Below, piece by piece: positions 1,532-18,867 of a stretch of DNA of 23,609 nt. Both the position numbers and the translations under genes were made by a program. Position 1 is the stretch's first letter. The number at the start of each line of letters is the position of its first letter. This stretch comes from a virus. The notes under the pieces are model-generated. The model had not been told where the DNA came from. It saw nothing but the letters and a program-made list of their open reading frames with translations, and made no database searches. The stretch lies in IMG/VR virus record IMGVR_UViG_3300034418_000308, positions 1-23,609 of that record, one strand, 5' to 3'.

Positions 1532-1559
1532 TGGCACAATTTTGTATATTTGCTACTTA
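1532..1559 (+). promoter_or_regulatory. Promoter of replication module (TGGCAC-N12-TTGC class)
   Basis: TGGCAC at 1532-1537 is followed after 7 bases by TATATTTG at 1545-1552, a perfect match to the Bacteroidetes TAnnTTTG box, and then CTACTTA. The same TGGCAC and TTGCTAYTTA elements with the same 12-base gap recur at 16563 and 18840, and in weaker form at 7954, each just before a gene. Transcription would begin near 1558-1563, directly ahead of the structured leader. The preceding bases CCAAG are identical to those at the 16563 site. Confidence 0.75.
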
Positions 1560-1565
1560 CTAATG

Positions 1566-1712
1566 AACGCTAAGGCAAAAGAGCGTTTGTCGTAAACCCT
1601 GAGTTATGAACAGATACATAAACCGATACGGGAAAAACAACATTCGACCTTCTCAGGTGGTCATGTTGGGCGTTGCCTCGCCTCCCGTTCGGTTACCTTT
1701 AAACCCTGAGAC
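1566..1712 (+). ncRNA. Candidate structured 5' leader RNA (three-way junction with kissing loop)
   Basis: Read by eye. Hairpin P0 pairs 1566-1571 (AACGCT) with 1582-1587 (AGCGTT). P1 pairs 1621-1633 with 1683-1694, 12 base pairs and one bulged T. Inside it, after AAAA, P2 pairs CAACAT 1638-1643 with ATGTTG 1663-1668 and GACC 1646-1649 with GGTC 1659-1662. P3 pairs GGCG 1669-1672 with CGCC 1679-1682. P2, P3 and the 3' arm of P1 abut with no spare base. The whole P3 loop TTGCCT (1673-1678) is the exact complement of AGGCAA (1573-1578) in the P0 loop. The P2 loop CTCAGG (1652-1657) complements CCTGAG at 1598-1603 and 1705-1710, the latter two bases before the start codon at 1713. This suggests a cis-regulatory RNA controlling the replication gene. 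Confidence 0.6.
1594..1710 (+). repeat. Pair of AAACCCTGAG repeats flanking the leader fold
   Basis: AAACCCTGAG occurs at 1594-1603 and 1701-1710, 107 bases apart. Each copy is followed by two bases and an ATG (1606 and 1713). The second ATG starts the replication-initiator-like gene. The first opens a 64-codon frame with no recognisable protein character. The two copies bracket the three-way junction, and both can pair with its P2 loop. Confidence 0.7.
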
Positions 1713-2453
1713 ATGGCTGAAAACAAAAAGTCATTTATCCTGTACTGCGACCAAAAAGGAGTGTGGGACAAACTGGATGACGCTCAAGCTGGGCGTTTAA
1801 TCAAACACATTATTTCTTACGTCAACGATGACAACCCGGTTGCTCCTGACTTTATAACTGAGTTAGCGTTTGAGCCGATTAAACAATCGTTGAAGCGTGA
1901 CCTAAAGAAGTGGGAGAAGCAACAAGAACAACGCTCTGAAGCTGGTAAACGCTCTGCTGAAGTTCGTAAACTAAACGCTAAACTCGCTAAACGAGATTCA
2001 ACGACCGTTAACGACCGTTCAATTTCGTCTACTGTTAATGGTAATGTAAATGTAAATGATAATGTTAATGTTAATGAGAGTCTAATTAAAACGCCCACAC
2101 GCGAGGAGGTAGAAAAGGAAATTTGTAATAACCTATTTACTCGCGGCATTGCATCGGTATCATTTCCAGTTGAAGACCTTGCGCAGAGATTCCACGACAA
2201 TTATGAATCGAAAGGCTGGGAGATAAACGGGCAACGTATCTACAAGTGGCAGCCGAAACTGAACCAATGGATTTCGGAGGAGTTAAAAAACAAATCCTCA
2301 TCTTTAGAAACACAGGAAGAAAAGGAAGCCCGCGAGTTCATGCAGATGATAAATGACTACAACACGCACAAAACACTCTACGGAGAGGATTCCGCTAACG
2401 CTAAATTTAAATTCGATGTACAACCTGATATCAACAATAACAGAATTGCCTAA
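1713..2453 (+). CDS. DUF6291-like phage replication initiator-type protein
   Basis: A 246-residue protein. The N-terminal block (about 1-75) contains SFILYCDQKGVWDKLDDAQA, GRLIKHIISYVND and FEPIKQSLKRDLKKWE, matching the DUF6291 pattern common in Bacteroidetes phages and prophages. A charged helix and an Asn/Val-rich linker (about 105-125) follow. A C-terminal module with FHDNYESKGWEINGQRIYKW (about 163-182) resembles the end domain of DnaD/initiator-like phage proteins. That two-domain layout with a low-complexity linker is usual for phage replication initiators. DUF6291 itself has no established activity, so the role is inferred. It starts directly after the structured leader and overlaps the next gene by 38 bases. 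Confidence 0.75.
   Translation: MAENKKSFILYCDQKGVWDKLDDAQAGRLIKHIISYVNDDNPVAPDFITELAFEPIKQSLKRDLKKWEKQQEQRSEAGKRSAEVRKLNAKLAKRDSTTVNDRSISSTVNGNVNVNDNVNVNESLIKTPTREEVEKEICNNLFTRGIASVSFPVEDLAQRFHDNYESKGWEINGQRIYKWQPKLNQWISEELKNKSSSLETQEEKEAREFMQMINDYNTHKTLYGEDSANAKFKFDVQPDINNNRIA
1968..2076 (+). repeat. Iteron-like and AT-rich tandem repeats, candidate replication origin
   Basis: Three kinds of repeat cluster inside the linker coding region of the initiator-like gene. CTAAAC recurs three times between about 1971 and 1995. AACGACCGTT is present as two exact adjacent copies (2000-2009 and 2010-2019). An AT-rich array has AATG exactly every 6 bases, seven times (2037, 2043, 2049, 2055, 2061, 2067, 2073). 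Origins placed as iterons beside an AT-rich segment within the initiator gene are known from lambda O and several other phages. A pure protein-level Asn-Val linker could explain the AATG array but not the 10-mer pair so readily. Confidence 0.4.
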
Positions 2454-2979
2454 GCTCATAGGCTGTGCAGATTTCCCGAACTCTCCTCAGGGAATGGGTC
2501 TTATCAAAATGATACAGGACTTCATTAACTCGGAGTACAGATACACGGGGGCACAGGTAAAAGAAGCGTTTACGATGGCAGTAAAACGGGAGCTTTACTT
2601 GGATGGCAAACGAGTAGACCCTTCTACCTTTGGACAACACCTATCTGTTAACGTGGTCGGTCAGGTGCTGACGGCATACAAGGAACACAAGCGGCAAGGC
2701 AAAGCAAATCATGGTTACAACCCTATTCAGTTGCCTGAGTACAAAAAGAAACCTATCACTCCAGCAGAAGCGCATGACATGATACTTAAATGGATTAAAA
2801 AGGATGGTGAACTTCCAGCATTCGCACCGTACAACATAGCTTATCTTTACCTACTCGAAAAGGGTCAGGTCAAACCAGTAAGCGAAGAAACAAGCAGAAT
2901 GAGATTGATGGGCGCAAACGTAGAGGTGAGTGCAAAGAGAAAAGCTGCGGAAGATTGGTATAAGAAAAATTGTTTGTAG
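2416..2979 (+). CDS. Uncharacterised protein of the replication module
   Basis: A 187-residue soluble protein with no signal or membrane segment. The start ATG at 2416 overlaps the initiator-like gene by 38 bases; the frame is open farther upstream, but that part is the overlap in another frame. Recognisable stretches are FPNSPQGMGLIKMIQDFINS near the N-terminus, a segment with LDGKRVDPSTFGQHLSV, and KKPITPAEAHDMILKWIKKD with LPAFAPYNIAYLYLLEKGQV in the C-terminal half. The pattern recalls conserved hypothetical proteins that follow the initiator in Bacteroidetes phages. Position suggests a helicase-loader or replisome accessory role, but no motif proves it. Confidence 0.75.
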   Translation: MYNLISTITELPKLIGCADFPNSPQGMGLIKMIQDFINSEYRYTGAQVKEAFTMAVKRELYLDGKRVDPSTFGQHLSVNVVGQVLTAYKEHKRQGKANHGYNPIQLPEYKKKPITPAEAHDMILKWIKKDGELPAFAPYNIAYLYLLEKGQVKPVSEETSRMRLMGANVEVSAKRKAAEDWYKKNCL

Positions 2980-2989
2980 ATTTAAGCCC

Positions 2990-3514
2990 GTGAAAGACCA
3001 AGCGGCAATCGACCTACTATCTGACGAGGAACTACACGAACTCGCTCAGAAGTTATGCAATTGCCCTGATGACCTGATCCAAGAGGTGGTTCTTCTTTTG
3101 CTGGAAATGCCCGAAGAAAAGTGGCAACAGATAAACGAAGGCGGCTATCTGAGGTTCTACGTGGTTAGAACTATGATGACAATGGCAACATCCAAACGCT
3201 CCAGCTTCTCCAAGTTATACGACCTCCACAACCACAATAAGGTAGACCACGAGCGAGAGGACTACGACTGGGAAAAAGAGGACGATATTGCACTTTTGGA
3301 AACACTTATGGATGAGCTGCATTGGTATGACCGCGAGGTTCTGAAATTGTGGCTTGAAGAAGGCAGCTACCGAAAGGTCGGCAAAAAGGTCGACATACCC
3401 TACAAATCAATCGGAAACACAGTTAATAAAGCACTTGACCAACTAAGAGACAACTACTATGCTATACATCTTGAGCGCATTATCCGCGAGCGTTGCCGCT
3501 TACCTATGGATTGA
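2990..3514 (+). CDS. Sigma-70-like (ECF-like) protein
   Basis: A 174-residue protein from GTG 2990, ten bases after the previous stop; the frame is also open from a GTG at 2930. Residues about 28-60 (DDLIQEVVLLLLEMPEE, then LRFYVVRTM) resemble sigma region 2, where DxxQEV is common. Residues about 108-153 (ELHWYDREVLKLWLEEGSYR followed by KVGKKVDIPYKSIGNTVNKA) resemble the region 4 helix-turn-helix that reads the upstream promoter element. A strongly acidic linker (about 85-100) joins the two. Such proteins in Bacteroidetes phages are annotated as sigma factor-like. It could direct the shared TGGCAC-class promoters of this window, which is inference. Its end overlaps the next gene by 56 bases. 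Confidence 0.65.
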   Translation: MKDQAAIDLLSDEELHELAQKLCNCPDDLIQEVVLLLLEMPEEKWQQINEGGYLRFYVVRTMMTMATSKRSSFSKLYDLHNHNKVDHEREDYDWEKEDDIALLETLMDELHWYDREVLKLWLEEGSYRKVGKKVDIPYKSIGNTVNKALDQLRDNYYAIHLERIIRERCRLPMD

Positions 3515-16562: not shown

Positions 16563-16590
16563 TGGCACACCTTTCTTGAATTGCTATTTA
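16563..16590 (+). promoter_or_regulatory. Promoter of capsid module (TGGCAC-N12-TTGC class)
   Basis: TGGCAC at 16563-16568 and TTGCTATTTA at 16581-16590, with CCAAG directly upstream as at 1532. It lies in the 48-base gap between the protease and scaffold genes, 15 bases before ATG 16606, and would give extra transcription of scaffold, coat and tube genes. The central box TTGAATTG is a poorer fit to TAnnTTTG than at 1532. Confidence 0.7.
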
Positions 16591-18839: not shown

Positions 18840-18867
18840 TGGCACAATTTCGTCTTTTTGCTATTTA
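18840..18867 (+). promoter_or_regulatory. Promoter of portal module (TGGCAC-N12-TTGC class)
   Basis: TGGCAC at 18840-18845 and TTGCTATTTA at 18858-18867 with the same 12-base gap as at 1532 and 16563; the AATTT after TGGCAC is shared with the 1532 site. It sits five bases after the terminator T run and 13 bases before ATG 18881. Confidence 0.75.

Follow-up and report, generated by a model that had tools for sequence, protein, structure and literature searches.

The window, by which we mean the whole 23.6-kb stretch of DNA analyzed here, is a virus record with terminase and structural genes. The leader described below is preceded by a C5 methyltransferase-like gene (852-1523) and followed by one for a DUF6291-domain protein (1713-2453); the promoter, the leader elements, and the DUF6291 gene are on the plus strand. 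The product of the downstream gene carries an N-terminal DUF6291 domain (PF19808, E = 1.2e-23) and a C-terminal part that weakly resembles lambda P (0.013), and it matches phrog_6451, a primosomal protein (7e-7). The annotation “replication protein” is given to its relatives in phages of Flavobacterium and Olleya, and the gene that comes next in Cellulophaga phage phi13:2 carries the annotation “DNA replication protein.” Judged by these similarities, the gene is of the replication type. The DUF6291 domain is present in only 4 of 396 Bacteroidota genomes, and neither this domain nor such a leader is described in the open-licence literature that was searched. Positions 2030-2085 within the gene hold AT-rich direct repeats (GTTAATG/GTAAATG), which encode a NVNVNDNVNVNE-like linker also seen in most relatives, and this array is a candidate replication origin.

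A promoter of the Bacteroidota type is predicted at 1532-1552, where TGGCACA (1532-1538) is followed by the -7 element TATATTTG (1545-1552). Both the promoter and the start site were deduced from the consensus match. The initial annotation placed the start of transcription just before a hairpin called P0, and the consensus promoter at 1545-1552 would indeed put it a few bases 5′ of that hairpin. This promoter is kept in the leaders of close relatives. In three of these (L003, L005, and L007), the region 5′ of the promoter is divergent while the leader is intact, and therefore the promoter, leader, and gene behave as a separate module. The sequence TGGCACANNTT occurs three times in the window (1532-1542, 16563-16573, and 18840-18850) versus 0.27 copies expected. 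Each copy precedes a gene start, and two are situated in the late region; the sequence is probably a shared phage promoter element. The minus strand has no TAnnTTTG before position 2915 in a scan that covered this promoter type.

All of the helices listed by the initial annotation were found on direct reading of the sequence. Hairpin P0 (1566-1587) is formed by AACGCT (1566-1571) and AGCGTT (1582-1587), and its loop carries the kissing arm AGGCAA (1573-1578). The closing helix P1, which is supported by sequence reading, the minimum free energy (MFE) fold, and hand-placed helices, joins 1621-1633 to 1683-1694 through 12 pairs with T1627 bulged. Enclosed by P1 are P2 (1638-1668; CAACAT 1638-1643 with ATGTTG 1663-1668, plus GACC 1646-1649 with GGTC 1659-1662) and P3 (1669-1682; GGCG 1669-1672 with CGCC 1679-1682). 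The P3 loop, TTGCCT (1673-1678), is the exact complement of the P0-loop arm AGGCAA, again as originally noted, and would kiss the P0 loop.

A comparison of folding energy with shuffled sequences, which the initial annotation had put forward as a check, also favors the structure. The MFE fold of 1555-1715 holds P0 through P3 at -44.6 kcal/mol (z = -2.6), and only 1 of 200 dinucleotide shuffles is as stable. A loop-loop match of the P0/P3 length arises in 1.3% of refolded shuffles. The evidence from the window sequence alone is thus good but modest, and it is the homologues that decide. The window is above no Rfam gathering threshold, in keeping with the original impression that this is no known riboswitch or ribozyme class. 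Likewise, a search of the relatives with Rfam at E up to 1 gave no match in their leaders; one sub-threshold L20-leader match in L096 is located elsewhere than the leader.

The initial annotation is incomplete in that it lacks the pairing of the P2 loop with start-codon contexts, a leader reading frame, the terminator-like form seen in relatives, and the wider class, which also precedes other genes. The apical loop of P2 (seqB, 1650-1658) reads TTCTCAGGT, and its CTCAGG segment (1652-1657) is able to pair with either 1598-1603 or 1705-1710. The first target (seqA, 1594-1603) is AAACCCTGAG, just 5′ of an ATG at 1606, and includes CCTGAG (1598-1603) as the complement of the loop. The second target (seqC, 1701-1711) is AAACCCTGAGA, located 5′ of the gene ATG (1713), and its CCTGAGA (1705-1711) complements TCTCAGG (1651-1657). 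Both targets are within a 16-nt repeat (TAAACCCTGAGTTATG at 1593-1608 and TAAACCCTGAGACATG at 1700-1715). Because the target is duplicated, the P2 loop could cover either start. The duplex of the loop with the second site is computed at -11.5 kcal/mol, the best for this loop among all types. An insertion with target-site duplication was considered as the origin of the 1593/1700 repeat and rejected, since loop pairing explains the repeat and other lineages have unrelated sequences there.

The ATG at 1606, directly 3′ of the first target, opens a leader frame (1606-1800) of 64 codons that spans the structure and overlaps the first 88 nt of the next gene, which is read in a different frame. The initial annotation described the region as noncoding and structured; the structure holds, but the noncoding label is too simple because this frame begins at 1606.

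Relatives were gathered through DUF6291-anchored and pattern searches of IMG/VR, GTDB genomes, and annotated phages. When the leader DNA was searched against annotated phages at distant settings, nothing useful was returned, and protein-anchored searches replaced the DNA query. The long-class leaders share a plan made up of a promoter, P0, a target, the ATG of the leader frame, P1 around P2 and P3, and the ATG of the gene. Representatives of this plan fall into types A (the window), B (L137), B2 (L041 and L051), C (L044), C′ (L132, L133, and L183), D (L042), E (L045), F (L052), and G (L068). The covariation that the initial annotation had proposed to seek in homologues is present, as the plan is kept in IMG/VR relatives and in cultured phages with compensatory changes.

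Among 17 leaders of the same plan, the P0-P3 kissing interaction (K1) pairs at 84 of 85 positions, the helix between the P2 loop and its target (K2) pairs at 120 of 120, and the nested helices pair nearly completely, although these helices were placed by hand and the count leans towards structure. Eleven distinct K2 helices are represented in this set. The P0/P3 arms are AGGCAA/UUGCCU in type A and UGACA(A)/U(U)GUCA in the majority of the others, and the outer P2 stem CAACAT/ATGTTG becomes CAGCAT/ATGCTG in L040. In alignment A3, which covers nine relatives of types C and D only, a program count with both pseudoknots included gives 96.4% of cells paired and 10 pairs changed on both sides, a result equaled by none of 500 shuffles, and 5 of 7 K2 pairs have changed on both sides; these counts mix related sequences. 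The A3 alignment and the hand-placed helices were used for counts, and a MAFFT alignment of all long types (A2), which misplaces P1, was left out of them. Along with the compensatory changes, there are G-U changes in P0 and P2, which fit the transcribed strand.

A covariance model built from types C, C′, and D only finds leaders of types B, B2, F, and A; it did not find those of E or G. In the window, whose lineage was not part of the model, it matches 1563-1691 with 24.5 bits and an E-value of 0.004 in 120 kb, a rough value because the calibration was short. The structure is real. The core proposal of the initial annotation, a structured leader with a three-way junction and kissing loops before a replication-type gene, is upheld jointly by covariation, shuffle energy, and this covariance-model match.

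The strongest test was the reassignment of loops to targets. Across 34 leader types, which are partly related and not all independent, cognate loop-target pairing sums to -401 kcal/mol, whereas the best of 20,000 reassignments reaches -254.6 kcal/mol, which is a large gap. Each loop fits its own upstream region far better than those of others, and in all lineages examined a change in the loop is matched by one in its target. Given as target/loop, the pairing is CCUGAG/CUCAGG in type A, GACAAGG/CCUUGUC in L138, GACACAG/CUGUGUC in B2, CUCGAAG/CUUCGAG in L132, GCUCAAG/CUUGAGC in L133, GAAUGAC/GUCAUUC in E, ACAAUGAA/UUCAUUGU in C, CCUCAACA/UGUUGAGG in F, and UCACUAAC/GUUAGUGA in G. A strong second site is found in about 6 of the 34 types (A, B2, C, F, L028, and L096; permutation 4/20,000), and most types lack one.

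In 12 of 13 lineages no stop codon interrupts the leader frame within the structure, where shuffles predict 4.2 such lineages, and the other two frames are open in 3 of 26 cases. It stops at -4 to +14 relative to the main start in types C, C′, D, and F and in L195, L059, and phi13:2, and in L132 the stop of the leader frame overlaps the main start as TTATTATGA. The corresponding position in the window is +88, which is too far inside the gene for ordinary coupling. Profile searches recognized no protein family in the window frame, and the leader frame shows no regulatory codon run. Conserved coding of a leader peptide was rejected because the types do not share one frame at the homologous P3 loop. 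Judging from these comparisons, what is kept seems to be translation rather than a peptide.

At least six T residues occur in the eight bases after P1 in 21 of the 34 types, and therefore P1 resembles an intrinsic terminator in most relatives. In the window, the 3′ strand of P1 is associated with the weak U-tract ACCTTTAA, with three T residues among the eight bases after P1, and terminator prediction called no terminator in this leader. For these reasons, termination in the window is doubtful, and if the leader is an attenuator, its control there may be mostly translational.

Sequence comparison also indicates that a wider, simpler class exists beside the long class. In the simple class, the gene is immediately preceded by a terminator-like hairpin whose loop pairs with an upstream strand or hairpin loop, and such leaders occur in other DUF6291 phages and before other first genes. 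Their pairs include GUAAGAG/CUCUUAC (L067) versus GUAGAAG/CUUCUAC (L089), GUUGCAG (L046), CAUCCGAC versus CCUUCGAC (L069 and L082), and CUCUCACA in the cultured phage phi13:2 (L232). No leader frame was found on sequence reading in L046, L067, or L069. A promoter-anchored scan that was blind to the downstream gene gave 39 matches at 1,442 sites versus 6 in shuffles. It recovered additional families, among them one in which there are five distinct matching pairs and the P0 stems covary, as well as a leader in the cultured Flavobacterium phage tooticki6-1, where it precedes an HNH endonuclease gene. A cruder descriptor limited to DUF6291 gave 24 matches versus 5.6 in shuffles, but it misses true cases and was not relied on. 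A DUF6291 gene on a bacterial genome contig (L330) is also preceded by a very strong hairpin whose UGUCAAU matches the P0 loop AUUGACA.

The genes that follow these leaders vary. First genes of three kinds follow the C′ leader, encoding an unclassified replication-type protein (L132), a DUF1376-like protein (L140; this assignment is just under the family cut-off), and an HNH endonuclease (L195). In the family with five pairs, DUF6291 is downstream in L263, and small unrelated proteins are encoded there elsewhere. The presence of one leader type before non-homologous first genes suggests that the leader controls any gene placed after it and is not tied to a single protein.

The explanation we favor, to which we assign about an even chance, is that the leader is a cis-acting attenuator that limits expression of the phage replication operon. 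Comparison of the leaders shows that the start of the transcript folds into P0 through P3, that the P0 loop pairs with the P3 loop, and that the P2 loop pairs with the start context of the leader frame and, in some types including the window, with that of the main gene as well. An early ribosome on the leader frame would cover the 5′ side of P1 and P2 and block the hairpin, which would allow RNA polymerase or ribosomes to proceed to the replication gene (the on state). If the ribosome is absent, the P2 loop would capture the start of the leader frame, such that loop and ribosome would compete for that start. The fold, perhaps stabilized by kissing between P0 and P3, would then lock the leader off. 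Leaders with a strong U-tract would be switched off by termination; in those with a weak one, such as the window, ribosomes would be barred from one or both starts. Of these interactions, simple forms would retain just one, in which the hairpin loop pairs with a loop or strand upstream of it, and the lack of a leader frame in L046, L067, and L069 implies that the ribosome step is not universal. Like ribosome-antiterminated attenuators, these leaders combine a promoter, a leader frame, a hairpin that looks terminator-like in most types, and a gene, but they differ from them in having no regulatory codon run and in having an apical loop that pairs back to the region where the leader begins.

There is precedent for parts of this scheme. 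The C4 RNA of phages P1 and P7 is also made from a leader, and its loops are directed at the region where a short frame before the controlled gene starts. A search of seven records, the window among them, with RF01695 (C4) at E up to 10 found no match, and in the present leaders the first target precedes the antisense loop, in contrast to C4. The plasmid replication leaders repY-repZ of IncI-alpha/IncB and copT-tap-repA of R1 have a leader frame before the replication initiator and use loop-based long-range pairing, with an antisense RNA made from the opposite strand. In those plasmids, loop changes set specificity (PMC10724649). The phage leaders likewise have a frame ahead of the replication gene, but their antisense loop is on the same strand. 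The CI RNA of phage P4 pairs with seqA upstream and seqC downstream in the leader of replication genes, and this causes premature termination (PMC4825925). The present leaders share with P4 the location before replication genes and an antisense segment complementary to an upstream site, to which the window and about five other types add a clear downstream one. They have no known sequence relation to CI, and they differ in the leader-frame start at the first target, in the P0-P3 kissing, and in having a strong second site in only a minority of types. By analogy, we infer that the leader works like P4 CI, P1 C4, and the IncI-alpha and R1 leaders, but we assign it to none of these systems.

The main alternative, which is rather unlikely, is a trans-acting antisense RNA like P4 CI or P1/P7 C4, in which a short leader transcript would accumulate and its loop would silence replication genes by pairing with the targets on newly made transcripts of the same phage or of a related one that infects the cell. 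Loops would then differ between relatives because they set specificity. This idea draws on the target-antisense-target order of the window, which is that of P4 CI (PMC4825925), on the five different pairs within one family, and on L132 versus L133, where 8 of 14 positions in the pairing arms have changed compared with 5 of 111 in the remainder, although such pairs were picked because their arms differ and are biased and only suggestive. Against it, each leader bears both target and loop and would satisfy itself, and RF01695 is not matched. Moreover, DUF6291 is rare in bacterial genomes, and no tyrosine integrase is present in the window, in 21 other IMG/VR records (many of them fragments), or in the complete tooticki6-1. 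The sole integrases seen were a weak one in phi13:2 and one in a bacterial genome. Because integrases are so rare among carriers, lysogenic immunity was not retained as the main role, yet the simple-class leader of L330 is in a bacterial genome. A related and less probable proposal is that loop types define exclusion groups, with the leader RNA of one phage silencing the replication gene of a co-infecting phage that has the same loop, as plasmid antisense RNAs do.

We consider it improbable that the leader is instead a 5′ structure that stabilizes the mRNA or recruits ribosomes in hosts that rarely use Shine-Dalgarno pairing. The fold does start near the inferred transcript start in all types, and in some types the second target is directly at the start codon, but this reading leaves unexplained the U-tracts, the fast-changing complementary loops, and the open leader frame. 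The adjoining replication-type gene, with its AT-rich repeats at 2030-2085, might suggest that the element acts as DNA, for example as a single-strand origin or as a cruciform bound by a protein. This is very unlikely, since the element invariably follows a promoter closely and is on the strand that is transcribed, has U-tracts and G-U changes on the sense strand, and also precedes the endonuclease gene in tooticki6-1. A pseudoknotted three-way junction ahead of a gene brings to mind a ligand-binding riboswitch, which is equally improbable because no fixed pocket-like core is evident, the loops vary freely if pairing is kept, and Rfam gives no match.

The leader looks like an undescribed switch that would limit when the replication gene is made, with its novelty judged from Rfam and the open-licence literature. 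It represents a widespread RNA class absent from Rfam that occurs in both cultured and uncultured Bacteroidota phages, and phage gene control in this phylum is little known. Its position is at the gate of phage replication, and its pairing rules are exact and testable by swaps of a few bases. Such leaders may also provide portable control parts for Bacteroidota, and if the loops act in trans too, they would offer an RNA basis for exclusion between phages.

Two observations concern proteins encoded downstream. Among the products in L132, L140, L016, and the window (1713-2453), the N-terminal domains differ (DUF6291, DUF1376-like, or unclassified) and the C-terminal domains are shared. The N-terminal domains of the replication-type protein appear, on domain comparison, to have been swapped onto shared C-terminal domains along with leader types. 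Finally, a gene downstream of the leader (2930-3514) has weak similarity to sigma-70 region 4, and its product may recognize the TGGCACA promoters.
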